64,000 bases of DNA from Nonomuraea guangzhouensis (GTDB taxonomy: Bacteria; Actinomycetota; Actinomycetes; Streptosporangiales; Streptosporangiaceae), in assembly GCF_019396345.1 (NCBI RefSeq), contig NZ_JAHKRM010000022.1:124001-188000 (forward strand), read 5' to 3'. The translations under genes and the position numbers were made by a program. A model generated the notes under the pieces. It did no database searches. It had not been told where the DNA came from and saw only the letters and a list, made by a program, of their open reading frames with translations. Of this stretch, positions 5,167-61,420 are shown piece by piece. Each line of letters opens with the position of its first letter. Position 1 is the first letter of the stretch.

Positions 5167-5176
5167 CGGAGCCTCC

Positions 5177-5508: not shown

Positions 5509-7467
5509 ATGAGTGACATGAACTCGCACTCGGCGCGTGACCTCGGGATGAACCGGCCTATTACCCGCCGCGACTTCTTGGACGGCGTCGCCGTGGTGGC
5601 AGGGACGATGGCCCTGGGCGCATCGGCGGGCTGCGGCGCGCCGCGGCCGGGCGGATCGGCCGTCATCGGGTCCCAGGCGCTGCTCGTCCCCCAGGACGTG
5701 GGCTCTCCGGCGAGCCTCACCGGCCTCCGGGGCGGCACGCCGGAGGCGCTCAGCGTCCCGCACGCGCTCCGCGACGGCCGCTTCTGGGAGCACGCGGGCT
5801 CCCCCGTGCCCACGGGCGAGCACTACGACCTGGTGGTGGTCGGCGGGGGCATCAGCGGGGTGAGCGCGGCCTTCGAGTGGCGCCGGCAGAGCCCGGAGGC
5901 CCGCATCCTGATCCTGGACAACCACGACGAGATCGGCGGGCACGCGCGGCGCAACGAGTTCCGTCCCGCCGGGCGCGACGGGGTGCTGGTCGGCTGCGGC
6001 GGCTCGCGCTCGATCCGGCTGCCCTCGGTGTGGACGCCCGAGGGCAAGGAGCTGCTCGACCTGCTCGGCGTCAAGCTGGAGAAGCTGGGCGGCTACCTAG
6101 ACGAGCACCTGTACGCCGGCCTCGGGATGCACCGCAGCGTGATGTGCGACCGGGAGACGTTCCGGGCGGACCATCTCGTCCGTCTCACCCCGGGCGTGGA
6201 GCCCAGGCAGTGGGTCCAGCGGCTGCCGGTCGCCGAGCAGGCCAAGAAGGACCTCGTCATGCTGCACGAGAACCCGCCGGACTGGTTCCCCGGGCTGTCG
6301 CCGGAGCGGAAGGAGGAGCGGCTGGCGGAGGTGACCTACTCGGACTTCCTGCTGCGGGTCTGCCGGGTGCACCCCGACGTCGAGCTGTTCTTCCGGACCA
6401 TGCCGAGCGTCGCATGGGGATACGGCACGCAGGCGTTCGGCGCGATCGACGCCTGGGGCAGCGACTATCCGGGGTTCGGCGGTCTGGGGCTGGACGCCGG
6501 CAAGCCGTCGCGGTTCAGCTCGCCCAGCCTGAAGAAGGAGTGGAAGGTCGCCGACCGGAACGTCTACCACTTCCCTGAGGGCAACCAGGCGCTGGTCCGC
6601 ATGATGCTGGGCCGGATGATCCCCGGCTTCGCCGGCTCCACCACCATGGACGGCATCACCACCGCCGCCTTCGACTACGGCCGGCTCGACCTGCCCGCGA
6701 ACCGGGTCCGCTTCCGGCTGTCGAGCCCCGTCGTCTTCGCGCGCAACAACGGCTCACCCGACACCGCGACCACCGCGACCGTCGGCTACTTCGACGGCCA
6801 CCGGGTCAGCACGGTCCACGCCGGAGCGGTCGTCCTGGCCTGCTGGAACATGGTCATCCCCTACCTCGTCCCCGAGCTGCCCGAGAACCAGAAGCAGGCG
6901 CTGCGCGACGCGGTCAAGATGCCGGTGCTGGACGCCGCGGTACAGCTGCGCGGCTGGGAGGCGTGGCGGCGCCTCGGCATCGACCGCACCCGCTGGACGG
7001 GCGCCTACTGGTGCCTGTCGGAGCTCGACCACCCGGTCGGCCTGCCCGGCTACCAGCACCCGAAGGACCCGGGCGAGCCGATCAGCGTGCGCATGCTGGC
7101 CGCGCCGTGCCAGTCGGAGCTGGGTCCTGGGCCGGGCGCCGCCGTGGGCCGGCAGGAGCTGCTCAGCACGCCCTACAGCCGGCTGGAGTACTCCATCCGC
7201 GACCAGCTCGCCCGGCTGCTCGGCCCCGGTGGCTTCGACCCGGCCACGGACGTCGAGGCGATCACGGTCAACCGCTGGGGCCACGGGTACTCCCCGGAGT
7301 ACTGCCGCCCGTGGCACTCCTTCTATCCCGACGGCCCGTTCCCCGCCGACACCGCGCGCCGGCGCTTCGGCAGGATCGCGATCGCCAACTGCGACTCCGT
7401 GCCGGCCGCCCGCGCCGACGCGGCCATCTCCGCCGCCCATCTGGCCGTCGCGGAGCTGCGGACCTGA
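5509..7467 (+). CDS. Tat-exported FAD oxidoreductase, spermidine dehydrogenase-like
   Basis: Flavoprotein of 652 aa. The N-terminus carries a twin-arginine signal (ITRRDFLDGV) followed by a hydrophobic stretch ending ASAGC, which may also be a lipobox, so the protein should be folded before export and may be membrane-anchored. The FAD Rossmann motif is VVVGGGISGVSAAFEW (about residues 107-122), followed by ILDNHDEIGGHARRNEF, the pattern seen in the SpdH spermidine dehydrogenase family. The C-terminus (SVPAARADAAISAAH) is the usual second FAD contact. SpdH oxidises spermidine; the true amine substrate here is unproven. The extra residues before the twin arginine are typical of the family, so the upstream ATG was kept. 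It converges on the SDR gene with one base between the stop codons. Confidence 0.8.
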   Translation: MSDMNSHSARDLGMNRPITRRDFLDGVAVVAGTMALGASAGCGAPRPGGSAVIGSQALLVPQDVGSPASLTGLRGGTPEALSVPHALRDGRFWEHAGSPVPTGEHYDLVVVGGGISGVSAAFEWRRQSPEARILILDNHDEIGGHARRNEFRPAGRDGVLVGCGGSRSIRLPSVWTPEGKELLDLLGVKLEKLGGYLDEHLYAGLGMHRSVMCDRETFRADHLVRLTPGVEPRQWVQRLPVAEQAKKDLVMLHENPPDWFPGLSPERKEERLAEVTYSDFLLRVCRVHPDVELFFRTMPSVAWGYGTQAFGAIDAWGSDYPGFGGLGLDAGKPSRFSSPSLKKEWKVADRNVYHFPEGNQALVRMMLGRMIPGFAGSTTMDGITTAAFDYGRLDLPANRVRFRLSSPVVFARNNGSPDTATTATVGYFDGHRVSTVHAGAVVLACWNMVIPYLVPELPENQKQALRDAVKMPVLDAAVQLRGWEAWRRLGIDRTRWTGAYWCLSELDHPVGLPGYQHPKDPGEPISVRMLAAPCQSELGPGPGAAVGRQELLSTPYSRLEYSIRDQLARLLGPGGFDPATDVEAITVNRWGHGYSPEYCRPWHSFYPDGPFPADTARRRFGRIAIANCDSVPAARADAAISAAHLAVAELRT

Positions 7468-7468
7468 G

Positions 7469-8254
7469 TTACCGATCCAGCGTGTCGAGGCTGGCCTGCC
7501 AGAGCCGCTCCGCCAGGCCGGGGTCGGACATCGTGTCCGGGACCCGCTCCGGGGCCTGCTTCGCGAAGTAGCGCCCGGCCCGCTTCTCGCCGTCGGCGTG
7601 CGTCGCCAGGTGCACCAGCGTGCGCGCGCCGTACTCGGGCGGCTTGGCGTATCCGGGCACCGCCAGGAACATCCGCATGATCCACGTCTCCGCCGCGAAC
7701 CCGCTGCGGATCACACCCGGATGGAAACAGGTGGCCGCCACCCCGCGGGCCGCCAGCGCGACGGTGAACAGGGCATTCGCCTGTTTCGTATCGCCGTACT
7801 GGAGCCAGCCGTTCCATCGTCGCTGCTCACGCGACAGGTCGGCCGGATCGATCCGGCCGCTTCTGCCTGCCCGCGAAGAAGTGGTGACTACCCTGTCAAC
7901 CAGATCTGTTAGAGAATGGGTCAGCAGAAAGGGGGCCAGATGGTTGACCTGAATCATCAGTTCGTGACCGTCCACCGTAATCTGGCGCCGCGGACTCATC
8001 ACGCCCGCGTTGTTGGCCAGCACGGCAATGCGTCCATAACGTTCACGCAGCACCGACGCAAGCCTACGAACGTCGTCAAGCGATGTGTAATCGCAGGTCA
8101 AAACATCGGCTTCGGATCCGCTCAGCCCGTCGGCCACGGCTTTGAGCCGAGACTCGTCCCGGCCGACGAGCACCACCCGGTGTCCCCGTCGTGACAGCTC
8201 GCCCGCCGCCGCGGCGCCGATGCCGGCACTTGCCCCAGTAATCACGCTAATCAA
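7469..8254 (-). CDS. Short-chain dehydrogenase/reductase (retinol-dehydrogenase-like)
   Basis: Classical-type SDR of 261 aa. The NAD(P) motif TGASAGIG lies at residues 6-13, an Arg after the second strand (VGRDESRL) favours NADP(H), NNAG follows strand four, and the catalytic Tyr/Lys pair is YGDTK. The long C-terminal part and the TTSSRAG segment resemble retinol dehydrogenase/WW-domain-oxidoreductase-like members. The substrate is unknown. A TTG start is chosen at 8254 because GGGGGAGG lies 6-7 nt upstream and no ATG is available at the fold's start. It is transcribed away from the conservon kinase gene; the 111-bp intergenic region must carry both promoters. Confidence 0.85.
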   Translation of the reverse strand: MISVITGASAGIGAAAAGELSRRGHRVVLVGRDESRLKAVADGLSGSEADVLTCDYTSLDDVRRLASVLRERYGRIAVLANNAGVMSPRRQITVDGHELMIQVNHLAPFLLTHSLTDLVDRVVTTSSRAGRSGRIDPADLSREQRRWNGWLQYGDTKQANALFTVALAARGVAATCFHPGVIRSGFAAETWIMRMFLAVPGYAKPPEYGARTLVHLATHADGEKRAGRYFAKQAPERVPDTMSDPGLAERLWQASLDTLDR

Positions 8255-8365
8255 CGCGTTCCTCCCCCTGCGCCGGAAGCATAATCGGTGCTAGTCTCCT
8301 GTGCGATCTTCCGGAGGTGTGTTTACACAGAGTGTGGAAATGCCCCTCGACTCCGAGGTTGGGAC

Positions 8366-10507
8366 ATGGGCTCGCAAAACCGGTCAATTCGGTTCAAGAT
8401 CTTCTTATTACTGTTGCTACCCCTCCTGTCTCTGAGTGCGCTCTGGGGCTTTGCCCTCAATCTCACCGTGGGTGACGGTCAAGCCCTCCTAAGAGCCAAC
8501 ACGCTTTATCAGACTATTGGTGTCACCTCCACCGACCTGGGCTTACAGCTCCAAGCCGAGCGGGCCCAATCGGCCGTGGCGGTCACCACCCGTCAACTCA
8601 CCCAAGAGCTCGGAGCGCAGCGCGCCGGCACCGACAAGTCCGTCGCCCGCTTCCAGAAGTCCGCTGTCGAGGCGGGCGACGCGATCCTGCCCGACCTGCG
8701 CGGCTCCCTCGACACCCTCAACGGCGAGCTCAACCGGCTCGGCTCCATCCGCGCCGACATCGACGGCGGCAACAGCTCCCGGCTGACGAGCCTCAACGAG
8801 TACAACCGGGTCCTCGACGCCATCTTCCGGCTCTATGACCACCTCATCTCGCTGCCCGATCTGCAGATCTTCCAGCAGGCGTCGTCGCTGCAGGCCATGG
8901 GCAACGCCCGGGAGATCATCGCCAGGGAGCACGCGCTCGTCAGCGGCGCGCTCATCGACCACCGGGTGACCGAGCCGGAGCTCACCGAGTTCACCGAATA
9001 CGTCGCGACCCGCAAGTTCCTCGCCGCCCGTGGCCAGGCCGGGCTCGACACGGCGCTCCGCAAGCCGTACGAGCAGATCTTCGCCGGCGAGGCGTTCAGG
9101 GACTTCACGGCGATGGAGACGCGCATCATCGCGACCGGCGCCCCGCCCGCCGACGCCGCGGCTTGGAACGCGACCGTGGACCGGCTCACGGTGCAGCTCG
9201 ACCGGCTGGGCGTGTCGTCCTCCGAGGTGCTGAGCGGGCGCGCGCTCGACGCGGCCGGCGCGACCATGGTGAAGATCGGCAGCGCGGGCGGTCTCGGGCT
9301 GATCGCCGTGCTCGCCTCCATCATCATCTCCGTACGCTTCGGCCGCCGCCTCGCCGGCGAGCTGGCCGCGCTCAGGTCCGCGGCCGTGGAGCTGTCCGAC
9401 GAGCGGCTGCCCGGCCTCGTCGACCGGTTGAGCCGGGGCGAAGAGGTGAACGTCAAGGAGGAGGCCAAACCGCTCAAGGTCAGCGGTGCCGCCGAGATCG
9501 TGGACGTGGCCAAGGCGTTCGGCTCCGTGCAGCGCACCGCCGTACGGGCCGCCGTGAGCCAGGCCGCGATGCGGCGCGGCATCGGCCAGGTGTTCCTCAA
9601 CCTGGCCAGGCGCAAGCAGGGCCTGCTGCACCGCCAGCTGGCGCTGCTCGACGGCATGCAGCGCCGTACGCACGACCCGGACCGCCTGGAGGAGCTCTTC
9701 CGCCTCGACCACCTGACGACGCGCATGCGGCGCCACGCGGAGAGCCTGATCATCCTGTCCGGCGCCGCCCCCGGCCGAGCCTGGCGCAAGCCGGTGCCCG
9801 TGGTCGACATCGTCAGGGCGGCCATCGCCGAGGTCGAGGACTACACCAGGGTCACCGTCGAGACCATGCCCGGCAGCGCGCTCGACGGCGCCACCGCCGC
9901 CGACCTCACCCACCTGGTCGCCGAGCTGGTCGAGAACGCCACCATCTACTCGCCGCCCACCACCACCGTGGTGGTCCGCGGCGACCTGGTGAGCAACGGC
10001 TACGCGATCGAGGTGGAGGACCGGGGCCTCGGGCTGTCGGCCGGCGAGTACGCCGCGTTCAACGCGCTGCTGGCCAACCCGCCGGAGTTCGACCTGGCCG
10101 ACAGCGACAGGCTGGGCCTGTTCGTGGTGGCCAGGCTGGCCGAACGGCATGGCATCCAGGTGCTGATGCGCCGTTCGCCGTTCGGTGGCACCACCGCGAT
10201 CGTGCTGGTGCCGCGGAGCCTGGTCAACGACCAGGCCGCACTGACGGCAGGCAGCGATGAGACGCCCGCGCTGCCCAGCCGTACGAAGAAGAAGGCGCTC
10301 GCAGTGGTGAACGGCACGCACGCCGGGCTGCCAAGGCGAGTGAAACAGGCCAACCTGGCACCCCAGCTCAAGGCGGACGAGCCGCCGGAGCCGGATCCGG
10401 AAGAGAAGACAGAACGCTCTCCCGATGAGGTACGGGACCTGTTCTCCGCCTTCCAGCGGGGAACCCAACGCGCCCGAGAAGAAGCGAATGAAGAGGGGGA
10501 GGCATGA
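8366..10507 (+). CDS. cvnA: Conservon sensor kinase CvnA (NIT-domain histidine kinase)
   Basis: Sensor of 713 aa. After a membrane segment (about residues 10-35), an extracellular helical nitrate/nitrite-sensing-type domain runs to about 305, followed by a second membrane segment (GGLGLIAVLASIIISV). The cytoplasmic part has the variant dimerisation region with DHLTTRMRRHAE and an ATPase domain with N-box LVENATIYSPP, DRGLGL and GGTTAIVLVP. The C-terminal tail carries LPRRVKQANL and a SPDEVRDLFSAFQRG block that recurs in the second kinase at 12210-14405. CvnA proteins act with CvnB, C and D as a membrane-associated signalling complex. The start at 8366 has GAGG 7 nt upstream. The stop overlaps the next start (ATGA). 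Confidence 0.92.
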   Translation: MGSQNRSIRFKIFLLLLLPLLSLSALWGFALNLTVGDGQALLRANTLYQTIGVTSTDLGLQLQAERAQSAVAVTTRQLTQELGAQRAGTDKSVARFQKSAVEAGDAILPDLRGSLDTLNGELNRLGSIRADIDGGNSSRLTSLNEYNRVLDAIFRLYDHLISLPDLQIFQQASSLQAMGNAREIIAREHALVSGALIDHRVTEPELTEFTEYVATRKFLAARGQAGLDTALRKPYEQIFAGEAFRDFTAMETRIIATGAPPADAAAWNATVDRLTVQLDRLGVSSSEVLSGRALDAAGATMVKIGSAGGLGLIAVLASIIISVRFGRRLAGELAALRSAAVELSDERLPGLVDRLSRGEEVNVKEEAKPLKVSGAAEIVDVAKAFGSVQRTAVRAAVSQAAMRRGIGQVFLNLARRKQGLLHRQLALLDGMQRRTHDPDRLEELFRLDHLTTRMRRHAESLIILSGAAPGRAWRKPVPVVDIVRAAIAEVEDYTRVTVETMPGSALDGATAADLTHLVAELVENATIYSPPTTTVVVRGDLVSNGYAIEVEDRGLGLSAGEYAAFNALLANPPEFDLADSDRLGLFVVARLAERHGIQVLMRRSPFGGTTAIVLVPRSLVNDQAALTAGSDETPALPSRTKKKALAVVNGTHAGLPRRVKQANLAPQLKADEPPEPDPEEKTERSPDEVRDLFSAFQRGTQRAREEANEEGEA

Positions 10508-10911: not shown

Positions 10912-11273
10912 AGGAACCCCCGCGGTGGCTTGACGAGGACGCGGGGCCGATCGTCCGGCCCTACGCCCTCATACGCGGGCGCACCAGAACCTCCGGAGAG
11001 GTGTTCGACCTCATCGCGAGTGTCTCGGTCGTCGGCGACCCGGCGCACCACGACCTCGAACCCGAGCAACAACTCATCCTGCGGGCCGCACGTAACCCGA
11101 TCTCGGTGGCCGACGTGGCCGTCGAACTCGACCTGCCCGTAGGCGTCGTCCGAGTACTGCTCGGCGACCTGCGTGACCACGGCCTCATCTCGGTGACGTC
11201 GCCCTCAGAGACAGGCCCGCGCCCGAATGAGCGCATTCTCAAGGAAGTGATCAATGGACTCCGTGCTCTCTGA
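10908..11273 (+). CDS. cvnC: DUF742 protein CvnC
   Basis: DUF742 protein of 121 aa. The N-terminal part (WLDEDAGPIVRPYALIRGRT) is the family signature. The remainder is a winged-helix-like domain (SVADVAVELDLPVGVVRVLLGDLRDHGLI), ending in NERILKEVINGLRAL. Its exact activity is unknown; in conservons it is part of the complex with CvnA, B and D. The start overlaps the cvnB stop by 4 bp and its 3' end overlaps the cvnD start by 20 bp. A paralogue with the same N- and C-terminal signatures is encoded just beyond the operon on the other strand (11833-12213). Confidence 0.93.
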   Translation: MKEPPRWLDEDAGPIVRPYALIRGRTRTSGEVFDLIASVSVVGDPAHHDLEPEQQLILRAARNPISVADVAVELDLPVGVVRVLLGDLRDHGLISVTSPSETGPRPNERILKEVINGLRAL

Positions 11274-11826
11274 GGACCCCGTCGCGCTGAAGATTCTCAT
11301 CGCCGGGGGGTTCGGCGTGGGCAAGACCACGCTGGTCGGATCGATCAGTGAGATCAGGCCGCTACGCACGGAGGAGGTGCTCTCCGATCGCGGTGTCGGC
11401 GTCGACGATCTCGACGGTGTGGAGGCCAAGACCACCACCACCGTCGCGATGGACTTCGGCCGCATCACGATCCGCGAGGGGCTGGTCGTGTACCTGTTCG
11501 GCACCCCCGGTCAGGAACGGTTCTGGTTCATGTGGGACGAGCTGTCCTACGGCGCGCTCGGGGCCGTCGTGATCGCCGACACCCGCCGGCTGACCGACTG
11601 CTTCCCGTCCGTCGACTACTTCGAGCAGCGCGGCACCCCGTTCGTGGTGGCCGTCAACTGCTTCGACGGCGCCGACCGGCACAGCGTGGACGACGTGCGG
11701 ATCGCGCTCGACCTGGACGAGGACGTGCCCGTGCTGCTCTGTGACGTACGGCGGCGCACCTCGGCCAAGGAGGTCATGGTCACGCTGGTCGAGCACTCGC
11801 TGCGGACGCTGACGTCGGCGAACTAG
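11254..11826 (+). CDS. cvnD: Conservon small GTPase CvnD
   Basis: GTP-binding protein of 190 aa. The P-loop is GGFGVGKTT (about residues 14-22), a switch-region Thr lies in VEAKTTTTVAMDFG, the G3-like motif is FGTPGQERFWFMW, and the base-specificity strand is AVNCFDG in place of the usual NKxD, as is common in this family. It should cycle between GTP and GDP under control of the CvnB roadblock protein. It is the last gene of the operon. Its stop lies 6 bp from the stop of the convergent DUF742 gene, with no recognisable terminator between them. Confidence 0.92.
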   Translation: MDSVLSEDPVALKILIAGGFGVGKTTLVGSISEIRPLRTEEVLSDRGVGVDDLDGVEAKTTTTVAMDFGRITIREGLVVYLFGTPGQERFWFMWDELSYGALGAVVIADTRRLTDCFPSVDYFEQRGTPFVVAVNCFDGADRHSVDDVRIALDLDEDVPVLLCDVRRRTSAKEVMVTLVEHSLRTLTSAN

Positions 11827-11832
11827 CAGCGG

Positions 11833-12213
11833 CTAGAGCGCCCGCAGACCGTCGATCACTTCCCTGAGCAGGCTCTCCGTAGGGGTCGTGGCCTTGGAGA
11901 GCGGCGGACGGACCGACACCAGGCCGTAGTCGAGCAGATCTCCGAGCAGGACCCTGGCCACCCCCACGGGCAGGTCCAGCTCGGCGGCGATCTCGGCGAC
12001 CGGCCTGGTCTGCCCGGTGACGCAGTCGACCAAGCGGCGGTGCCGGGCGCTCAGATCCGCCTTGGCCGGCGGCGGCTGACCGGTCGCCATCACGGTCGCC
12101 AGCAGGTCGAGTTCCGCGGGCGAGGAGGGCTTGGTGCGCCCCCTGGTCACCGCGTACGGCCGCACGACAGGTCCGGCCTCCTCGTCAACCCACTCGTCGG
12201 GCTCACGGGTCAC
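11833..12213 (-). CDS. Second DUF742 protein (CvnC-like)
   Basis: DUF742 protein of 126 aa, a paralogue of the CvnC at 10908-11273: it shares WVDEEAGPVVRPYAVTRGRT at the N-terminus, the winged-helix segment VAEIAAELDLPVGVARVLLGDLLDYGLV and the ending LLREVIDGLRAL. The GTG start overlaps the stop of the upstream kinase by 4 bp, so the pair is coupled. Unlike the facing operon there is no roadblock gene between kinase and DUF742 and no GTPase after it, so this is an incomplete conservon that may borrow CvnB and CvnD from its neighbour. Confidence 0.9.
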   Translation of the reverse strand: MTREPDEWVDEEAGPVVRPYAVTRGRTKPSSPAELDLLATVMATGQPPPAKADLSARHRRLVDCVTGQTRPVAEIAAELDLPVGVARVLLGDLLDYGLVSVRPPLSKATTPTESLLREVIDGLRAL

Positions 12214-14405
12214 GATTGGGATCCCCCATCCTGATCGCTGTCCTGCCGCCCGCGCTGCCAGCCGGACTGGAGTGAGGAGAGCAAGGCTCTGGCCTCCTCC
12301 GGCGAGCGGCCCGCGGACGAGCGTACTTCCGCCTGCTCAGGGGGCGCCTCCTTGAGCCGCTGCGACAGGTTGGCCTGCCGTACCCGGCGGGGCAGCTGCG
12401 ATTCCTGGGAGCGCTCAGGGCCCGGCTTGGTCGTCCGCTGCCGGCGCGGGAGCTGGCCGGGGGCCGTCGTGTCCTCGGGCGTCCTGACCACGGAGACGGA
12501 CACCGACTCCAGCTCGGGTGTCCGCACCGGCGTCGGGAGGGCCTGAATCAGCCCTGTGGGCACCAGGACGATCGCGGTGGTTCCGCCGTAGGGGGAGGGC
12601 TTGAGCGTGACCGTGATGCCGTGTCTGGCGGCCAGCATGCCGACCACCGCGAAGCCGAGCCGCTCGGTGTGCGACGCCTCGAACTCGGGCGGGCTCGCCA
12701 GTTGCTCGTTGACCGCCTGCCGGGCTTCGGCGGGCATGCCCAGGCCGCGGTCCTCGACCTCGACGGCGAAGCCCCTGCCGACCAGCTCGCCGCGGACCGA
12801 GACCTCGTTGCCCGGCGAGGAGAAGGCGGCGGCGTTCTCGATCAGCTCCGCGAACAGGTGCATGAGGTCGGCCACGGCCGCGCCGGAGACCCCGCACTCC
12901 GGCATCGGGTAGACGCGGACCCGGGTGTACTCCTCGACCTGCGCGGCGGCGCCGCTCAGCACGTCCTCGACCGGGATGACGCCGCGCCACCTGCGTCCGG
13001 CCGAGCCGCCGGAGAGGAGCACCAGGCCCTCGGCGTGGCGGCGCATGCGGGTCGTCAGGTGGTCGATCTTGAACAGCCGCGACAGCGCCTCGGGGTCCTC
13101 GGTCTCGCGCTGCATCTCGTCCAGCAGCTTGAGCTGGCGTTGCAGCAGCGACTGGCTGCGCCGGGCCAGGTTACGCAGCGCCTCGGAGACGCCCTGGCGC
13201 AACTTGGCCTGCTCGACGGCCGCGTCCACGGCGGTGTACTGGACGCTGTCGAACGCGTTCGCGAGGTCGTCGATCTCGCTCGTCGCGCCGTCGCACATCT
13301 TGATGGGCGGCACTTCGGCCTGGATGTCGACGCTCTGCCCCTGCCGCAGCTTCGTCACGACGCCGGGCAGCCTGATCTCGGCCAGGTCGAGGGCCGTACG
13401 GCGGAGCGCCGCCAGCTCACGGCTGATCCGCCGGCCCACCCGGACCGAGATGAAGATGGAGAAGGCGACCGCGATGAGGCCGAGGACGCCCGCCACGCCG
13501 GCCTGCACGATGATGCTGATGCCCGCCGGCTCCATCCGGGCCAGGAACCGGTCCCCGTTGTCCCAGATGACCTGCGTGTAGTCCTTCAGCACGGGGTCCG
13601 CCATGCCGCGCCAGACCGCCGGATCGACCGGCCGGCCCGAGACGTAGCCGTCCAGCGTGCGCTCCATCGCGGCCCAGCGCACGGAGTTGCTGAGCTTCTC
13701 GAACGGGACGCGCAGCTCGGTGTCGAGGTTGGCCATCGCCTTGGGGAACAGGTAGGTCCGCGTGCCGTCGATCCTGGCGAGCATGTGCATGTCGGCCATG
13801 GACGGCTTGCCGTTCGCCGCGACGATCAACGCGCGCTCGCGGTCCAGCAGCTCGCGTACCTCACTGGCGGCGATCAGGCCCTGCGCCTGCTGAGCCAGCC
13901 GGACGTCGGTGGCGAGGGTCAGCGACGGATACATGCGGTGGATCGAGTCGGAGATCGACGAGTACTCGGTGACCAGCCCACCGGGGCTCAGCCTGCGGTT
14001 GTCGACCTGCTTCCTGATCTCGGGCAGGCGCTCGACGGTCGCGAAGACCTCCTTCAGCCGCCCCTGCATCTCAGGGGTGAGGGCGGCCTGCGTCTTCTCC
14101 GTCAGTCCGTTGTCGCTGAGCCGCTTCTTGACCTCGTCGACCTTGGCGCGCGTGGTGCTCAGCGCGGCCGGGTCGGTGACGTTGCCGGAGATCACCTCGG
14201 CGGAGGCGAGGCGCTCCTGCTCGAGGGTGTAGACCAGGAAGTCGGCGTGATTGATGACGCCGTTCCAGATCGTGTCGACCTTCAGGAGGTTCAGAGCCTC
14301 ACCGGAGGTGGTGCTCGCGGCGAAGCCCCAGAGTCCGACCAGGGATACCAGTGGGAGAACCAGCAGCGTCGAGATCTTGAATCTGATGGATCTGCCAGAT
14401 GCCAT
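12210..14405 (-). CDS. Second NIT-domain sensor kinase (CvnA-like)
   Basis: Sensor kinase of 731 aa, with an N-terminal membrane segment (about residues 10-30), an extracellular helical sensing domain, a second membrane segment near residues 315-335 (VAGVLGLIAVAFSIFISV), and cytoplasmic dimerisation (DHLTTRMRRHAEGLVLLSGG) and ATPase parts (FAELIENAAAFSSP, DRGLGM, GGTTAIVLVP). The C-terminal tail has LPRRVRQANLSQRLKE and SPEEARALLSSLQSG, matching the facing CvnA. The extracellular domain is clearly diverged from that CvnA, so the two kinases probably sense different cues. The ATG at 14405 has GGGAGCGGG just upstream. The frame extends 15 codons further upstream without a site. Confidence 0.9.
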   Translation of the reverse strand: MASGRSIRFKISTLLVLPLVSLVGLWGFAASTTSGEALNLLKVDTIWNGVINHADFLVYTLEQERLASAEVISGNVTDPAALSTTRAKVDEVKKRLSDNGLTEKTQAALTPEMQGRLKEVFATVERLPEIRKQVDNRRLSPGGLVTEYSSISDSIHRMYPSLTLATDVRLAQQAQGLIAASEVRELLDRERALIVAANGKPSMADMHMLARIDGTRTYLFPKAMANLDTELRVPFEKLSNSVRWAAMERTLDGYVSGRPVDPAVWRGMADPVLKDYTQVIWDNGDRFLARMEPAGISIIVQAGVAGVLGLIAVAFSIFISVRVGRRISRELAALRRTALDLAEIRLPGVVTKLRQGQSVDIQAEVPPIKMCDGATSEIDDLANAFDSVQYTAVDAAVEQAKLRQGVSEALRNLARRSQSLLQRQLKLLDEMQRETEDPEALSRLFKIDHLTTRMRRHAEGLVLLSGGSAGRRWRGVIPVEDVLSGAAAQVEEYTRVRVYPMPECGVSGAAVADLMHLFAELIENAAAFSSPGNEVSVRGELVGRGFAVEVEDRGLGMPAEARQAVNEQLASPPEFEASHTERLGFAVVGMLAARHGITVTLKPSPYGGTTAIVLVPTGLIQALPTPVRTPELESVSVSVVRTPEDTTAPGQLPRRQRTTKPGPERSQESQLPRRVRQANLSQRLKEAPPEQAEVRSSAGRSPEEARALLSSLQSGWQRGRQDSDQDGGSQS

Positions 14406-37003: not shown

Positions 37004-37555
37004 TCACGGTGTCCAGGCCGGATCCCGGCCGATGACGCCGAGCAGCCGGTCGAACGCCGAGGCGTCGTCCGGCACCGCCACCGGCGGCCCGAAGGCGCCG
37101 CGCTGCCTGCCCATCTCCACCATCTGGCCGGTGAAGTCCAGCGCCCGCGCGACGCCCTCGGGCTCCGGCTCGTACCGCTGACCGGTGGCCCTGGCCAGGT
37201 CCCAGCCGTGCACGACCATGTCGACCAGGTACATGTGGGCCAGCGTGGTCATCGGCAGGCCCATGGCAGGGCTGGTCCCGTCCCATGCCTCACCCCGCGA
37301 CCAGGCGGCGAGCGTGCCCTCCGCCCGCTCGGGAAAGTCGCCCACGTAAGGTTCCTGCTCGACCCACGGTCCCTTACGGCCCAGTGACTCGAACAGCTCC
37401 GCCACCCACTCCAGGTGGTTGATCAGCTCTTTGACGTCGAACTTCGCGCATGGCGTAGGCGACCCGAACTGGTCCTGCCGCACCGCGCGCACCAATCCAG
37501 AGGTGCGTTCGGTGGCGCGCGTCATCAGCGGCATCATGTCGTCCATGGCAGACAT
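37004..37555 (-). CDS. TIGR03086-type maleylpyruvate isomerase N-domain-like protein
   Basis: DinB-superfamily helical-bundle protein of 183 aa, TIGR03086 type. The family marks are SPTPCAKFDVKELINHLEWVAELF with the first metal His, and VDMVVHGWDLARATGQ with the second. Members are mycothiol-linked metal proteins of unknown substrate. The ATG at 37555 overlaps the ATG of the divergent AraC gene; internal ATG codons at residues 4, 7 and 8 are plausible true starts. It ends 4 bp from the convergent WYL stop. Confidence 0.85.
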   Translation of the reverse strand: MSAMDDMMPLMTRATERTSGLVRAVRQDQFGSPTPCAKFDVKELINHLEWVAELFESLGRKGPWVEQEPYVGDFPERAEGTLAAWSRGEAWDGTSPAMGLPMTTLAHMYLVDMVVHGWDLARATGQRYEPEPEGVARALDFTGQMVEMGRQRGAFGPPVAVPDDASAFDRLLGVIGRDPAWTP

Positions 37556-54668: not shown

Positions 54669-55686
54669 CGTCGACCCCGCCGACCGGGTCGGGGCAGCCA
54701 CAGGAGCCGCGCCTGATCAGCGTGGCGGACAGGACGACACGCTCGCCTCCCGACGCGTCACCGATCTGTGCCGCCAGCAGCTCCACCGCGCGCCTGCCCA
54801 GTACCTCGATCGGCTGGCGCATGGTGGTGAGCGCGGGCACGGTGTAGGAGGAGGCGGCGATGCCGTCGAACGAGCAGAGCGCGACGTCGCCGGGCACGCT
54901 CAGCCCCAGCTCGGCGGCGGCGCGTATGACGCCGATCGCCTGCTCGTCGCTGGTCACGAAGAGCGCGGTGGGCCGGCCCTCCTGTGACAGGAGCTGGTGG
55001 CCGCCGAGGTAGCCGTGCCGCCGCCCGAACGGGCCGTGGACCAGCGGCATCGAAGCCGGGTCGAGGCCCGCTTCGGTCAGCGCCCGCGACCAGCCGGCGA
55101 CACGGTCGACGGTCGGATGGATGTTCTTCGGCCCCGCCACGCAGCCGATACGCCGCTGACCGTGCGCGAGCAGGTGGCCGGTCGCCTCGTACGCGCCGCC
55201 CTCGTTGTCGAGAAGCAGGTGGCTTGCCGGGGTTTCGTCGAGCTCGCGGTCGAGCACGATGCACGGCACCTTGGAAGCGGCGAGCTGGGACCGCCAGGCG
55301 TGCGGGCCGTGGGCAGGAATCAGGATCAACCCATCCACCTGGCGGTCGATCAGGGTCCGCACGTAGGCGGCCTCGCGATCGTCGTCGTCCATCGCGTTGC
55401 CGAGCAGCAGCGTCAGGCCGTGCTCGAAGGCGACGTCCTCGATCTCGCGGGCCAGCTCGGCGAAGAAGGGGTTGGCGTTGTCGGGGACGACAAGCCCGAT
55501 CGTGTGCGTACGGCTGGTGCGCAACGAGCGTGCGACGACGTTCGGCCGGTAGCCGAGCTCGTCGATCGCGCGCAGCACCCGTTCGCGGGTGTGCGGCGCG
55601 ACATTTCTCGGCCCGTTGTTGAGCACGTAGCTGACGACGGCGTCTGAGGTGCCGGCCAGCCGCGCCACATCGCGGCGTGTGACCAC
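54661..55686 (-). CDS. rbsR: LacI-family ribose repressor
   Basis: LacI/PurR-type regulator of 341 aa. The HTH is TRRDVARLAGTSDAVVSYVLNNGPRNVAPHTRERVLRAIDELGYRPN with hinge VVARSLRTSRT; the ligand domain has the periplasmic-binding fold (IGLVVPDNANPFFAELAREIE, FVTSDEQAIGVIRAAAELG, FDGIAAS). It is the first gene of the rbs operon, so it represses itself with the transport and kinase genes. The GTG start lies 9 bp inside a long inverted repeat that probably holds its operator. Confidence 0.92.
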   Translation of the reverse strand: MVTRRDVARLAGTSDAVVSYVLNNGPRNVAPHTRERVLRAIDELGYRPNVVARSLRTSRTHTIGLVVPDNANPFFAELAREIEDVAFEHGLTLLLGNAMDDDDREAAYVRTLIDRQVDGLILIPAHGPHAWRSQLAASKVPCIVLDRELDETPASHLLLDNEGGAYEATGHLLAHGQRRIGCVAGPKNIHPTVDRVAGWSRALTEAGLDPASMPLVHGPFGRRHGYLGGHQLLSQEGRPTALFVTSDEQAIGVIRAAAELGLSVPGDVALCSFDGIAASSYTVPALTTMRQPIEVLGRRAVELLAAQIGDASGGERVVLSATLIRRGSCGCPDPVGGVDDA

Positions 55687-55695
55687 TACGCAAAT

Positions 55696-55760
55696 CCCAT
55701 CTACTCGTGTTGCTGCAGTATTCGGTCAGGACTTCCGCAGTAGCAACACGAGTTGATGGG
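55696..55760. promoter_or_regulatory. Long inverted repeat before rbsR, likely operator region
   Basis: Arms of 19 bp with one mismatch: CCCATCTACTCGTGTTGCT (55696-55714) and AGCAACACGAGTTGATGGG (55742-55760), separated by 27 bp. Two oppositely oriented copies of one site at this distance could allow two RbsR dimers to bind or loop. It could instead fold as an RNA hairpin if transcribed. Confidence 0.6.
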
Positions 55761-56114
55761 ACGTTATGAAGGTGTTATCGCAGGGTTTCAGGACGATCAC
55801 GAAGAGTGGCCTGAGGTTGTGCGCCGCCTGCCGATGTCGCACATCGCATCCTGTCCCGTACGGCAGCGCGCGGAGTCCGCGCAGGTCAGGCGGTTTCGGG
55901 GCCTGCGGGGTGGGCGCGGGGCTCCGTGATCGCGGGTCACGTCGGGCCACGCTCACCGCTCTCGTTACGGTCGGCACCGGGCAGGAACCGTGCCGCCTTG
56001 AACGTCTGTTATCCGGCGACCGTGGGGGCGCTGCTCCAGGACCCGTACGGGATCACCGTCGGCGCGCGTGAAAAGCAGATGCCGGCGGCGGGATAGATCG
56101 CTACCCTCCCGGGG
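55761..56114. other. 354-bp region with only doubtful short ORFs
   Basis: No gene is supported. A 101-codon frame from 55766 is Arg-rich and lacks family features. A better-looking 56-codon frame from a GTG (55926-56096) ends in CYPATVGALLQDPYGITVGA and AREKQMPAAG, which reads like real C-terminal coding sequence, possibly a decayed gene tail. No ribosome site supports either. Confidence 0.35.
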
Positions 56115-56663
56115 GTGGAGCTTCGAGAAGAGCGGCCGGGCGACGCGGGCGCCGTGCGTCACGTCCATCTGCGAGCCTTCGGCGACCACGGCGGAATGGT
56201 GGCCGACCTGGTCGACACCCTGCGCCACGGCATCCGCTCCAGTGGAGGGTGCGCGCTCGTGGCCGAGGTCGCCGGACAGGTCGTCGGGCATGTCATGTTC
56301 ACCCGCAGCCTGCTCGACGCCCCGCGGCGGCTGATCGACGTACAGGTGCTCAGCCCGCTGGGCGTGCTGCCCGAGCACCACCGGCAGGGCATCGGCTCGG
56401 CCCTGGTCCGCGCCGGGCTCGCGACTCTCGCCGAAGGAGAGAGCCCCCTCGTCTTCCTGGAAGGCGACCCCGGCTACTACTCCCGCTTCGGGTTCGCCCC
56501 GGGGGCTGAGCTGGGCTTCCGCAAGCCGTCCCTGCGCATACCCGACGCCGCGTTCCAGGTGATCAGGCTTCCGGCGTACGAGCCGTGGATGACGGGGACG
56601 CTGGTCTACTCCGAGCCGTTCTGGCGTCACGACGCCGTCGGGCTCCGCGACCTCGACGCCTGA
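56115..56663 (+). CDS. GNAT-family N-acetyltransferase
   Basis: Acetyltransferase of 182 aa. The acetyl-CoA pyrophosphate loop is VLPEHHRQGIGSALVRAGL (motif A, near residues 85-103), preceded by strand LSPLGV and followed by FLEGDPGYYSRFGF with the motif-B tyrosine. This is the YhbS-like branch. The acceptor is unknown. The GTG start lies about 19 bp after the end of the doubtful short ORF. It is a single gene. Confidence 0.88.
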   Translation: MELREERPGDAGAVRHVHLRAFGDHGGMVADLVDTLRHGIRSSGGCALVAEVAGQVVGHVMFTRSLLDAPRRLIDVQVLSPLGVLPEHHRQGIGSALVRAGLATLAEGESPLVFLEGDPGYYSRFGFAPGAELGFRKPSLRIPDAAFQVIRLPAYEPWMTGTLVYSEPFWRHDAVGLRDLDA

Positions 56664-56881
56664 CGACGCACCTCCACGACCGGCCTTTCAGACATCATCG
56701 CTCTCCCGATTCGACGGCGAGATCAGCGGCCATCCTGGACTAAATATCGCATATCAAGTTATTTCAGGCTATAACTCCGTCCGCGATCTTTATTCGAACC
56801 GCAGCAACCATTGCACCTTTGTGACCTATTCGCTGTCGGGCGCCGACTCCAAGTGCTATCAAGGATCCTTGGAGGCCAATG
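56664..56881 (+). promoter_or_regulatory. AT-rich promoter region of the Tco/CHAT cassette
   Basis: This 218-bp stretch is clearly richer in A and T than the flanks. It holds an inverted repeat AGTTAT-8-ATAACT (56757-56762 and 56771-56776) overlapping a TATAAC box that could be the -10 element. GGAGG at 56871-56875 is the ribosome site for the first gene. Confidence 0.4.
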
Positions 56882-57211
56882 ATGGAGCGACTCGTCGAGT
56901 TTCAGTTGGACGGCGGAGAGAAGCTACTCGTGGAAGTCCACGACCTGCCCGCATCCGATGGTTCAGCAAAACGCGGATGGGGCTCACGTCCCACGGCACA
57001 AGAGGCTGATCGCAGTTTCGAGCAAGCCGTCGAGCGCATAAGCCCAGCCGCCCAAACCATGATAAATCGCCTCCGACTCCTCCCGGACGCGCCCGATGAG
57101 ATCAACGTCGAGTTCGGACTGGGACTGAGCGCGGAGGCCGGCGCCTTCATCGCGAAGACGAGCGGTTCGGCCAATTTCAAGATCTCGTTGACTTGGCATC
57201 GAAGTGAATAA
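56882..57211 (+). CDS. CU044_2847 family (trypsin-co-occurring domain) protein
   Basis: Protein of 109 aa recognised by its C-terminal family pattern INVEFGLGLSAEAGAFIAKTSGSANFKISLTWHR and by the N-terminal strand LVEFQLDGGEKLLVEVHDL. It is soluble and small, with a helix (SFEQAVERISPAAQTMINRL) in the middle. Members are found as genomic partners of trypsin-like or CHAT proteases and other effectors in conflict-type systems; the molecular role is unknown, perhaps an adaptor or inhibitor. The second of two adjacent ATGs has GGAGG at 6-nt spacing. It overlaps the CHAT gene by 8 bp, so the two are coupled. Base composition is lower in GC than neighbouring genes. Confidence 0.85.
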   Translation: MERLVEFQLDGGEKLLVEVHDLPASDGSAKRGWGSRPTAQEADRSFEQAVERISPAAQTMINRLRLLPDAPDEINVEFGLGLSAEAGAFIAKTSGSANFKISLTWHRSE

Positions 57212-58670
57212 GAACACCTACAAGAATTTCGACATCCTCATCGAACGATACGGCGACTCCTACCGCGCCAGAGTGCTGGACTCACCCAGCGGTCAGGGCG
57301 CCGCACATATTTTTCGACTTCCCTTCACCGACGAACAGCTGGAGATACTACTTCTCAGAATAGGACGTCGCCGCGGAATGCGCGGGGCCCCGCCCTCATC
57401 AAACGTAGCCGCAATCGAATTCGGTGGCAGCCTCTACTCCGCGGTTTTCCAGGAGCAGGTCCGAGCACACCTCCTCATGAGCCTGCAGAGCACAGAAGAA
57501 GAGCAGTCCGGGTTGCGCATCAGGATACGCCTGTCAAACTGTCCGGAGCTTGCCGATCTCCCTTGGGAGTATCTGTACGACTCCGAGCGACGCCGCTTCA
57601 TCTGCTTGTCGACAAGAACTCCCATGGTGCGATTTCTGGAGCTTCCCGAGCCTAGTCGTGTTCTCTCGGTCACCGGGCCGCTCAGGATGCTCGTGGTCAT
57701 CTCCAATCCGAACGAACCTGACTTCGACGAACTCGATGTAGAACGAGAGTGGGCAAATCTTGAGGAGGCATTGAGCGCCGTCGTGGAGTCAGGCCACGTC
57801 GAAATCGATCGACTCGATCCGCCAACCCTCAGCCGCTTGGATGCCCAGCTACGCCACCGCGACTACCATATTCTCCATTTCATTGGACATGGCCGGTTCA
57901 GCCCGCAGGTCGGCTACGGCGAGCTTCTCTTCGAAGATGACAGTCATCGTGGCCTGCCGGTGGGAGCAGCCCAGCTGGCCACCCTCCTCCACGACCACGG
58001 CTCTCTCCGCCTTGCCCTGCTCAACGCCTGTGAAGGCGCTCGCACGGGCCATGTCGACCCTCTGGCAGGCGTAGCCCAGACGCTCGTACAACAACGTATC
58101 CCAGCGGTAGTGGCCATGCAGTTCGAGATCAGCGACCACGCGGCGATCGCCTTCTCCAAGGTTTTCTACGAGATGCTCGCCGTTGGCGATCCCATTGATA
58201 CGTGCATCGCCCATGCTCGACGAGCTATATACGCGATTCCCAATCCCGTGGAATGGGCAACACCTGTTCTGTATCTTCGCGCGGGCGACGGTCAGGTCTT
58301 CGACGTATCTTCCGCTCCAGAGCGGATACATTCCGATGCCCCACCTCGCAAAGCACCAGCGGCAGAGAGCCCTTGGCGTGCCACCGTATCCACGGAGAAG
58401 CGAAGTTCGATGGTACGGGCTACGATCATCAACGTGACGCTGACGAGCGAGTCACACATCATTGTGGTCAGGTGGGGCTGGTCAGACAGTCTTGAGGTTG
58501 ATGGTCGCATCATCACAAAATCCATGAACGATCTGAATGGCGACCATACGTTCGTGCTGACCGATGGCGATCGAAGATTGGCTGCGGAGCTGACTATCAA
58601 GTCGAAGGGGATGCGATACATTGTCCAATCCCTGGTAATCGATGGCCAAAGCCTGTCCTGGTCGGATTGA
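57204..58670 (+). CDS. CHAT-domain (caspase-like) protease
   Basis: Protein of 488 aa. Residues about 70-370 form a CHAT domain: LADLPWEYLYD (residues 117-126), VVISNPNEPDFDELDVEREW, the catalytic His region HILHFIGHGRF (H229) and catalytic Cys region LALLNACEGAR (C276), with the terminal VEWATPVLYLRAGDGQVF. Both catalytic residues are intact. The N-terminal ~70 residues and the C-terminal ~90 (VRATIINVTLTSESHIIVVRWG, EVDGRII, TFVLTDGDRRLAAELTI) are beta-rich with no recognised domain; they may sense or bind partners. GTG start within the preceding gene. Codons such as ATA, AGA and CTT are commoner here than in neighbours, suggesting transfer. Confidence 0.93.
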   Translation: MNKNTYKNFDILIERYGDSYRARVLDSPSGQGAAHIFRLPFTDEQLEILLLRIGRRRGMRGAPPSSNVAAIEFGGSLYSAVFQEQVRAHLLMSLQSTEEEQSGLRIRIRLSNCPELADLPWEYLYDSERRRFICLSTRTPMVRFLELPEPSRVLSVTGPLRMLVVISNPNEPDFDELDVEREWANLEEALSAVVESGHVEIDRLDPPTLSRLDAQLRHRDYHILHFIGHGRFSPQVGYGELLFEDDSHRGLPVGAAQLATLLHDHGSLRLALLNACEGARTGHVDPLAGVAQTLVQQRIPAVVAMQFEISDHAAIAFSKVFYEMLAVGDPIDTCIAHARRAIYAIPNPVEWATPVLYLRAGDGQVFDVSSAPERIHSDAPPRKAPAAESPWRATVSTEKRSSMVRATIINVTLTSESHIIVVRWGWSDSLEVDGRIITKSMNDLNGDHTFVLTDGDRRLAAELTIKSKGMRYIVQSLVIDGQSLSWSD

Positions 58671-58815
58671 GGGGCGTGCCTTGAGGCATAGGTGAGGGAC
58701 CAGAGTGCAACCCGTGGCGCCTGGGATGTCCGCCTCCGAACCACTTGAAGGTGGGAGAAGGAGGAGAACTAGACTTGGTCTTGTCCCCCCTGCCGATGGG
58801 TTATGGGGAGGGGGC

Positions 58816-59781
58816 ATGGCCTTTCTGGCCGCCGGCTGGCTGTGGTCGTTCGCGGTCCTGGCCGTCGTCCTGGCGGGCTACATCGCCGTCCAGTTCCGGC
58901 GGCCCCGGCATATGGCGCGCTTCACCGACCCGAGGTTGCTCGATCTGCTCGCGCCCTGCCGTCCTGGCTGGTCACGGCATGTCACGGCGGCCGTGTTCGT
59001 CGTGCTGATGGCTCTGCTCATCGTGGCCGCGGCGCGCCCGGCCGCCTCCGTTCAGGTTCCCCGCGAGCGGGCCACGATCATCGTGGCCATCGACGTGTCC
59101 CTGTCGATGATCGCCACTGACATTCCGCCATCCCGGTTGGCGGCCGCCAAGAGCTCGGCCAAGTCGTTCATCACGAGCCTGCCCGAACGGTTCAACGTCG
59201 CCCTGATCTCCTTCGCCCGATCCGCGGCGGTGGTGGTGGCGCCCACCCTCGACCGCACGGCGGCCATCCGGGCGATCGACGCGCTGAAACCCGCCCCCGG
59301 AACCGCCATCAGCGAAGCGGTCTTCTCCGGCCTGGAGGCGATCCGCTCCTTCGACCAGAATGCGGCGAGCGATCCACCACCGGCCGCCATCGTGCTGCTG
59401 TCCGACGGCGACAACACCTCCGGCCGGGTCGTGCCCGATGCGACCAAGGCCGCCGCCGCGGCCAGAGTGCCGGTCTCCACCATCGCCTTCGGCACGCCCG
59501 ACGGCACCGTCGAGATCGACGGCCGCCGCCTTGAGGTCCCGCCCAACGAGGAAGCCCTGCGCACCCTGGCCGAAGGCACCGCCGGACACGCCTACAACGC
59601 CCGTACGGCCAGCTCGCTGGATGAGGTGTACGAGCGCATCGGCACCTCGCTCGGCACCATGACCAAACAGCAGGAGGTGGGCTACCAGGTGCTGCGCTGG
59701 GCCCTGCTCCCCACCTTCGCACTGGCCGCCCTGGCGCTGCTGACTCCGATCAAACTGGCCAGGGCCCGCCCTGCCCGGTGA
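58816..59781 (+). CDS. VWA-domain membrane protein (BatA-like)
   Basis: Protein of 321 aa with two N-terminal membrane helices (about 5-24 and 56-73), a von Willebrand A domain (about 85-285) and a C-terminal membrane helix ([16 protein letters not shown]). The metal-ion site DxSxS is intact at D93, S95 and S97 (AIDVSLSM), with later residues in TAISEAV and [10 protein letters not shown]. Such BatA/YfbK-type proteins usually sit beside MoxR ATPase and DUF58 genes; neither is present. GGGGAGGGGG precedes the ATG. Context: just after the CHAT cassette (145 bp) and overlapping the upstream frame of arsR. Confidence 0.85.
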
Positions 59782-59822
59782 CAGCAACGGACCTTTACGA
59801 AAGGGTTCTCCTCCGTCACTCC

Positions 59823-59838
59823 ATCGACTATCGTCGAT
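59823..59838. promoter_or_regulatory. ArsR operator before arsR1
   Basis: Perfect inverted repeat ATCGAC-TATC-GTCGAT ends 5 bp before the ArsR start at 59844, the position expected for self-repression of an arsRM operon. Confidence 0.55.
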
Positions 59839-59843
59839 TATCG

Positions 59844-60179
59844 ATGGATGAGCACATGGGGCCTTTGGCGCGAGCCGCGGCAGAGGAGTACGCGAGTTGG
59901 TTCAAGGCGCTGGCCGACGCCACTCGGATCCAGATCGTGTCGTTGCTGGCCCGGCGCCGGACGCCGATGAGCGTGGGCGAGATCGTGGCCGTCTCCGGTG
60001 TGGGTCAGTCCACCGTGTCGCACCACCTGAAGATCTTGGCGGAGGTGCGCTTCGTACTGGTGGAGAAGCAGGGCACCTCCAGCCTGTACCGGATCAACGA
60101 AGCCTGCGTGAGTTGCTTCCCGACCGCCGCCGACGTGGTCATGGGCAACCCCGTTCCGGCCGCGCCTACCTGTGAGTAA
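59844..60179 (+). CDS. ArsR/SmtB-family arsenite-type repressor
   Basis: Metalloregulator of 111 aa. The winged helix reads FKALADATRIQIVSLLARRRTPMSVGEIVAVSGVGQSTVSHHLKILAEVRFVLVEKQGTSSLYRI. A C-terminal cysteine pair, ACVSCFPTAADVVMG, is the likely As(III) site and is typical of ArsR paired with ArsM. The ATG at 59844 was preferred to the upstream frame, which overlaps the VWA gene, because the operator palindrome lies directly before it. It is followed 11 bp later by the arsM fusion gene. Confidence 0.88.
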   Translation: MDEHMGPLARAAAEEYASWFKALADATRIQIVSLLARRRTPMSVGEIVAVSGVGQSTVSHHLKILAEVRFVLVEKQGTSSLYRINEACVSCFPTAADVVMGNPVPAAPTCE

Positions 60180-60190
60180 AGGAGACCGCC

Positions 60191-61420
60191 ATGGCGCACG
60201 ACGAGATCGTGGACCACTACTCCCAGTTGGCCAGGGCCGCGGCCGCCGGCCGGGTCATCACGGACTGCGGTCCGGACGCCTTCGAGAAGGGGTGCTTCGG
60301 CGCCGCCGGATACGACGACATCAGCGCGCTGCCCGAGGCGGCGGTACGGGCCAGCCTGGGGTGCGGAAACCCGGTCGCCGTGGCCGAGTTGCGCGCCGGT
60401 GAATCCGTCCTGGACCTGGGCTCGGGCGGCGGCATCGACGTGCTGCTATCAGCCCGCCGGGTCGGCCCGCAAGGGAAGGCGTACGGACTGGACGCCAGCC
60501 CCGACATGCTCGCGCTGGCCCGCCGTAACGCCGAGCAGGCAGGAGCGCACAACGTGGAGTTCCTGCGCGGCGCCATAGAGGCGATCCCGCTGCCGGATCA
60601 TGCGGTCGACGCCGTCATCTCCAACTGCGTGATCAACCTGTCCGACGACAAGGCCGCTGTGCTGGCCGAGGCATTCCGGGTGCTCCGGCCGGGCGGCCGG
60701 TTCGGGGTGAGCGACGTGATCATCGACAACGCCCTCGACCCCGTCCGGTGCGCAGCGGTGGAGCAGCGGATCGGCTGCGTGGCCGGCGCCCTGACGGTGG
60801 ATGAGTACCGGCGACTGCTGGCTCGGGCGGGCTTCGTCGGCACCCGCATCACGCTGAGCGCCGATCACAGCGACGGCGTGCATTCGGCCATCGTGCAAGC
60901 CGTCAAGCCTGCCAGCGGGCCTGGACTGGAGATTCGGCCGATGCGTGAGGCGGACGCTGGACAGGTGATGGCCATCTATCAGGCCGGGCTGGACACCGGA
61001 CAGGCCAGCTTCGAGACCATCGCGCCGAACTGGGAAGGTTTCACCACCGGCAAGATGCCACACCTGCGTTATGTGGCCGCCGACACCGAGACGGGCGAGA
61101 TCGTTGGCTGGGTGGCGGCCTCGGCGGTCTCGGCCAGGCCGGTGTACACGGGCGTCGTGGAGCACAGCGTGTACGTTCACCCGGGCTGCCAGGCGCACGG
61201 TATCGGCCGGGCGCTGCTGACGGCGTTCATCGCGGCCAGTGAGGACGCTGGGGTGTGGACCATTCAGTCTGGGATCTTCCCGGAGAACGCCGCCAGTCTG
61301 TCGCTGCACCAGGGGCTGGGCTTCCGTGTAGTCGGCACCCGCGAGCGTGTCGGCCGTCATCACGGCATCTGGCGCGATGTGCTCATGGTGGAGCGGCGGA
61401 GCACGGTGGCGGGTTGCTGA
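60191..61420 (+). CDS. arsM: Fusion of arsenite S-adenosylmethionine methyltransferase and ArsN-type N-acetyltransferase
   Basis: Two-domain protein of 409 aa. Residues 1-240 are ArsM: SAM motif VLDLGSGGGIDVLLSARRVG (73-92), cysteines C26, C35, C146 (ISNCVINL) and C196 (RIGCVAGAL), the last two matching the arsenite-binding pair of ArsM enzymes. ArsM methylates As(III). Residues about 246-409 are a GNAT domain close to ArsN1/phosphinothricin acetyltransferases (LEIRPMREADAGQVMAIYQ, YVHPGCQAHGIGRALLTAF, GIFPENAASLSLHQGLGFR), which acetylate arsinothricin or glufosinate amines. The fused form would handle both inorganic arsenic and amino-acid arsenicals. RBS AAAGGAGACC. Coupled with the upstream ArsR. 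Confidence 0.93.
   Translation: MAHDEIVDHYSQLARAAAAGRVITDCGPDAFEKGCFGAAGYDDISALPEAAVRASLGCGNPVAVAELRAGESVLDLGSGGGIDVLLSARRVGPQGKAYGLDASPDMLALARRNAEQAGAHNVEFLRGAIEAIPLPDHAVDAVISNCVINLSDDKAAVLAEAFRVLRPGGRFGVSDVIIDNALDPVRCAAVEQRIGCVAGALTVDEYRRLLARAGFVGTRITLSADHSDGVHSAIVQAVKPASGPGLEIRPMREADAGQVMAIYQAGLDTGQASFETIAPNWEGFTTGKMPHLRYVAADTETGEIVGWVAASAVSARPVYTGVVEHSVYVHPGCQAHGIGRALLTAFIAASEDAGVWTIQSGIFPENAASLSLHQGLGFRVVGTRERVGRHHGIWRDVLMVERRSTVAGC

Follow-up and report, generated by a model that had tools for sequence, protein, structure and literature searches.

In the EACC1-caspase systems a protease stands in front of up to 50 alternative domains, and auto-proteolysis, with the variable ends as effectors, has been proposed for them (Kaur et al. 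2020, PMC7159879, in the passages available). The Trypco passages of that article concern trypsin, and the term FAIM does not occur in its main text; Trypco adapters near caspase-like peptidase genes are already noted in the accessible part of another report (PMC10907252). Fas apoptotic inhibitory molecule 1 (FAIM) of animals is said to lack homologous sequences and to have arisen in choanoflagellates (PMC8712662, in the portion available). Here we describe a two-gene cassette in a 64,000-nucleotide stretch of the Nonomuraea guangzhouensis genome (C43:124001-188000 of 13.7 Mb in 127 contigs), hereafter referred to as the window. In this cassette a Trypco1 gene overlaps the gene of a CHAT protease with a probably FAIM-like C-terminal tail. 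The unit of two low-GC genes is real and occupies a site at which it is missing from four relatives; the possible bacterial FAIM domain is the part worth following.

The original prediction, made from the sequence of the window, had read the cassette as two coupled genes for a CU044_2847 protein and a CHAT caspase-like protease. Profile searches confirmed both families. The first protein belongs to Trypco1 (PF19493, 96.5 bits, cut-off 24.6; NF041216, 74.7 bits, cut-off 23). It matches no other Pfam family above its cut-off, has no match in PADLOC and, as judged by eye, contains no long hydrophobic stretch; it is also the one Trypco1 match of the genome. The second protein matches CHAT (PF12770, 109.4 bits, cut-off 24), the sole domain found in a Pfam scan of its 488 residues. 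The overlap of the genes was confirmed as well, the stop of the first and the GTG start of the second sharing 8 nt.

His229 and Cys276, residues with a catalytic role in the CHAT family, had been noted as intact, and they are kept in all 23 aligned rows (the window protein and 22 of 35 listed relative stretches). In a structure comparison, modelled residues 5-370 align as a single unit with separase and TPR-CHAT. Of the two unassigned beta-rich ends proposed earlier, the N-terminal one thus dissolves into this predicted CHAT/separase unit, while the C-terminal one stands as a separate module. PADLOC matches of the protease were SAVED_CHAT (1.5e-20, residues 159-372 only) and BovA (1.8e-6). Seven CHAT matches were found in the genome; two adjoining CHAT genes lie at G000:C73:444863-447463.

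The identity of the C-terminal end had been missed in the original prediction; the end is a FAIM-like module, an assignment that is supported but not proven. When the tail was modelled alone (three rows), a predicted local distance difference test score (pLDDT) of 79.2 and a predicted template modelling score of 0.64 were obtained, with pLDDT of the five models spanning 55.4-79.2. The first PDB structure match of this model was the N-terminal domain of human FAIM (FAIM-NTD) in both aligners used, with middling Z and E values. In a global sequence test with the register fixed, residues 400-488 scored against FAIM-NTD with z of 4.6-4.8, a value reached by none of 3000 shuffles. Of 57,907 real segments compared at step 1 with the register free (24,451 taken from the rest of the contig's genes and 33,456 from CHAT relatives), none scored as high. 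Outside the window, copies of the tail were found only in locus L169, whose CHAT protein ends in two tandem repeats of it, against a single such domain in the window protein. Searched against 5001 sequences, a profile of these repeats recovers the window tail with E 6e-6.

Several results weigh against the FAIM assignment. The tail is of low confidence in the full-length model; with the register free, z against FAIM-NTD falls to 3.86 and 3 of 3000 shuffles reach the score; local sequence tests of the tail against FAIM are weak; and the L169 repeats fail to match FAIM in the global test. The last point says little, because FAIM-NTD and its sister, the C-terminal domain of FAIM, are themselves not significantly similar in the same test (z 0.4-1.4). 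The FAIM identity was initially an assumption of ours, based on the tail sequence before any model was made, and Pfam FAIM1 (PF06905) gave no match up to E 10, either in the tail or in the genome. Taken together, we consider the tail probably FAIM-like and are less sure of true homology.

Other searches with the tail gave little. Up to E 10, no Pfam family was matched except TssD, which at E 0.086 lies under its cut-off and was rejected. A phmmer search of PDB returned weak matches only, the best of them (E 0.082) to an antibody chain, and profile A1 found in PDB only repeats of designed or low-scoring chains, the top two lacking a single significant stretch. No tail match was detected in plasmids, no tail relative among 98 pattern matches in viral contigs, and nothing below E 0.001 in a viral structure library. 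Twenty further genomes of the order with E of 0.0011-0.088 to the tail were taken as chance. In 394 genomes of the class, profile A1 detected only the window and G569, both members of the profile. Among the matches listed in searches of open-licence literature, none dealt with a FAIM domain in bacteria. In a tree built from 36 CHAT units, L169 falls in a supported set that excludes the window; therefore, the module was either exchanged or repeatedly lost, and the tree alone does not choose between the two.

The sequence that follows the CHAT unit differs between relatives, the tail being exchanged. It consists of TPR in L010, WD40 in L015 and L288, a beta-propeller in L039, NB-ARC/AAA with TPR in L286 and CBM9 in L040 and L199. 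In L016 the end is short and matches no Pfam family; the end of L021 appears similar by eye, L016 being the one of the two covered by the Pfam scan. Many other relatives have, as judged by eye, long nucleoside triphosphatase (NTPase)-like ends, while in L012, L013, L014 and L018 only 2-17 residues follow the CHAT unit. The tail of L011 is cut by a contig end. The CHAT-CBM9 protein of L199 (839-3385) is 44% identical to the window CHAT protein over 74% of the latter; its record, MT836801.1, is unverified, named Bacteriophage sp. and derived from a human faecal sample. In L040 (Intrasporangium calvum), CHAT paralogues flank a Peptidase_C14 caspase gene (5962-8259, 8272-10221 and 11049-13088); the CBM9 tail was seen in the one CHAT paralogue scanned, and the locus has no Trypco1 gene.

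Table 1. Features of the Trypco1-CHAT cassette, in positions of the window
Feature	Position	Strand	Remarks
AT-rich leader	56664..56881	+	53.7% GC; GGAGG resembling a ribosome-binding site at 56871-56875; search gave no sigma-70-like promoter
Trypco1 / CU044_2847 family protein, 109 aa	56882..57211	+	assigned by family profiles; GGAGG 6 nt upstream of ATG 56882; alternative start ATG 56879
CHAT protease with C-terminal module, 488 aa	57204..58670	+	GTG start; 8-nt overlap with first gene
CHAT/separase-type unit, residues 5-370, including N-terminal beta-rich part	57216..58313	+	
His229, presumed catalytic dyad	57888..57890	+	invariant in 23/23 rows
Cys276, presumed catalytic dyad	58029..58031	+	invariant in 23/23 rows
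Linker of low confidence joining protease to module, residues 373-386	58320..58361	+	pLDDT <50
FAIM-like beta module, residues 391-488	58374..58667	+	portion aligned with FAIM-NTD: residues 400-488

A survey of gene neighbourhoods had been suggested as a check for conserved pairing of the two families. Trypco1 adjoins CHAT in seven loci, namely the window, L011, L039, L169, L177, L173 and L200, so that co-occurrence is seen in six loci besides the window. The CHAT gene begins 16 nt past the Trypco1 gene in L169; in L200 the gene order is reversed, with a 4-nt overlap; and in L173 trypsin and CHAT lie within one open reading frame (ORF) beside Trypco1. The pair is nevertheless an exception on both sides. 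At 80 Trypco1 loci, the partner was trypsin in 50, CHAT alone in 2, trypsin-CHAT in 1 and neither in 27, which places CHAT beside Trypco1 in just 3 of 80. These loci were hand-picked, not random: 60 came from among the matches listed (16 of the same genus and 44 spread along the matches) and 20 from the 28 non-window matches of a second listing. Six proteins that match Pfam Trypsin_2 served to build the trypsin profile, and some surveyed regions are cut by contig ends. Conversely, when 20 broader neighbourhoods of CHAT relatives in the order were examined, one contained Trypco1. On the 36-unit tree, Trypco1-linked CHAT units require five changes, and 41 of 500 shuffles gave values as low, i.e. 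they are not clearly clustered. The Trypco1-CHAT pair thus recurs without being a fixed lineage.

The L173 ORF (746-5008, minus strand) contains a trypsin-like peptidase, CHAT, an AAA-type NTPase and TPR, and Trypco1 (4986-5339, minus strand) lies directly ahead of it; it is possibly a bridge between Trypco1-trypsin and Trypco1-CHAT arrangements. Since Trypco1 was named for trypsin partners, its overlap with CHAT here and its position beside a trypsin-CHAT fusion suggest that it serves proteases of more than one class as an adaptor. Two other neighbours of Trypco1 were recorded. A 293-aa frame in L167 (5301-6179), to which Pfam assigned no family at E values up to 0.001, may be a further partner or not a gene, and the frame downstream of Trypco1 in L106 encodes an MFS transporter.

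The base composition of the cassette is distinct from its flanks, as had been predicted: its GC content is 57.9%, compared to 68.9% for the window, and is the lowest of 620 segments of 2007 bp (among the 580 segments clear of the cassette, the lowest is 64.1%). Codon use, examined as GC content of third positions (GC3) only, agrees, the two cassette genes having the two lowest GC3 values among 61 predicted genes of the window; when the comparison is extended as far as the contig end, 124 kb from the start of the window, seven further genes have still lower GC3. An AT-rich promoter of its own had also been proposed. The AT-richness of the leader was found, and the promoter was not: 56500-58900 contains no sigma-70-like site (0.7 expected).

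The left flank of the cassette is present, at 82-97% identity, in 4 of 11 relatives searched. The shared sequence ends at 55.92 (G141), 55.83 (G164), 55.89 (G171) and 55.78 kb (G174), the last shared pieces being 82-95% identical, and different sequence follows. Thus, none of the four flank-holding relatives carries the cassette at the same locus; it lies within a stretch absent from that place, which is likely a genomic island. No right-hand border of the insertion emerged when 68 kb of the contig from 55.9 kb were compared with the 20-40 kb past the flank in the four relatives; only two short stretches, ~75.7-76.2 and 98.2-98.8 kb (counted from window start), match at >75% identity and >150 bases. 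Elsewhere in the genomes of G141, G164 and G171, the flanking GNAT gene has similar sequence up to 56669. One G141 locus has only the final 95 bases of this gene (56575-56669), 98% identical and preceded by different sequence. Right after the cassette, a vWA gene begins at 58705, with a 93% copy at another G141 locus. Between 58705 and 64000 it is followed by further genes, which we take to be probable arsenic genes (ArsR regulators, an arsenite methyltransferase with a GNAT end and an aquaglyceroporin).

Elsewhere in the window, one tRNA was found (37034-37130); Rfam gave no match within 55500-60500. Two other low-GC3 stretches were seen on the same contig. L275:5416-10202, ~37-42 kb right of the window end (GC3 0.54-0.62), encodes a DNA methyltransferase close to PD-Lambda-5_B (2.4e-74), a HerA-like protein and then, presumably, a transposase; it is possibly a second defence locus. 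L274:2842-5855 is a low-GC3 gene with TPR repeats (PADLOC TPR, 1.2e-22), an NTPase-like start as judged by eye and a small gene directly upstream.

The cassette may encode a compact three-part switch on two coupled genes that defends by abortive-infection-like arrest, a tentative proposal that we favour over the alternatives and to which we assign somewhat less than even chances. The FAIM-like tail would be an exchangeable recognition part, Trypco1 an adaptor coupling recognition to the protease, and CHAT a caspase/separase-type cysteine protease that acts once released. The CHAT site would be freed when the tail binds a partner or when a contact that holds tail and protease together at rest is lost; the freed enzyme might then cleave host proteins or its own linker, and the cell would stop or die, as in abortive infection. 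The original prediction of adaptor plus protease as a compact defence module is thus upheld in its parts, the intact dyad, the low GC and the six further paired loci, while the defence function is something we infer.

Other explanations have to be weighed against this switch. The layout of protease followed by variable end would also suit a tail that is itself a deployed effector, freed when CHAT cuts the linker, which is predicted with low confidence; auto-proteolysis and effectors of this kind were proposed by Kaur et al. 2020 (PMC7159879, in the passages available). A lone binding domain would, however, make a poor toxin, and among the nearest relatives most tails are binding scaffolds or NTPases, so that we regard an effector as quite unlikely. 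The joining of a caspase-like protease to a domain of FAIM-like fold and sequence also brings to mind a built-in brake that holds CHAT shut, parallel to the anti-apoptotic role behind FAIM's name. Relatives have other tails at the same place and L012, L013, L014 and L018 have no notable one; therefore, a specific brake is not needed. Recent work on animal FAIM, moreover, points to anti-aggregation activity (PMC8712662, in the portion available), and a brake appears improbable.

We give as little credence to a protease pair that serves housekeeping or development, akin to HetF or separase, and has no defence role, for which the separase fold of the model and the only NCBIfam match, HetF, would speak; the latter, at 82.3 bits, is far under the cut-off of 1200. 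The distribution is patchy, the best other CHAT matches in the order being 47-49% identical and ending at residues 380-383, and of 342 genomes of the order only that of the window has the tail at E <0.001. The low GC and the four left flanks without a cassette behind them argue in the same direction. That the tail is an unrelated small beta sandwich, with a chance resemblance to FAIM, is somewhat unlikely; it would account for the middling Z and E values, the missing FAIM1 match, the weak local tests and the shuffles that reach the register-free score.

The tail resembles the NTD of animal FAIM in the global sequence test and probably in predicted fold, and L169 has two copies in tandem, as FAIM does; the window tail differs in having no Pfam profile match, in being single and in being fused to a protease. 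Bacterial relatives of FAIM might sit in cis on a caspase/separase-type protease within a Trypco1 death switch, animal FAIM descending from a bacterial suicide module, which we consider unlikely. If this were so, FAIM's association with cell death or with aggregated protein would be of ancient origin. Were the tail a true FAIM domain, an enigmatic animal protein would have bacterial relatives in which the domain is already joined to a caspase-like protease, and how death regulators originated could be tested on a 98-residue domain. The resemblance of the tail to FAIM would, if confirmed, tie an animal cell-death regulator to a bacterial one.

Compared to SAVED-CHAT and TPR-CHAT (Craspase/Csx29) of type III CRISPR, the window protein has no SAVED or TPR domain in the Pfam scan. 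Among conflict loci associated with diversity-generating retroelements, neither an overlapping Trypco1-CHAT pair nor a FAIM-like tail is described in the accessible part of PMC10907252. In the Trypco1-trypsin pairs of VMAP and STAND systems (PMC7159879, in the passages available), Trypco1 likewise directly precedes a peptidase-headed multidomain protein; here the peptidase is CHAT, and neither a VMAP nor an NTPase domain was found by the Pfam scan. The EACC1-caspase systems, prevalent in actinobacteria, share a common layout of a constant 5' gene followed by a 3' caspase-superfamily protease with a variable tail (same source and passages). The 5' gene of the cassette, judged by Pfam with no EACC1 profile run, is Trypco1 and not the membrane-spanning EACC1, and the 3' gene has the same caspase-like head and variable tail as in those systems.
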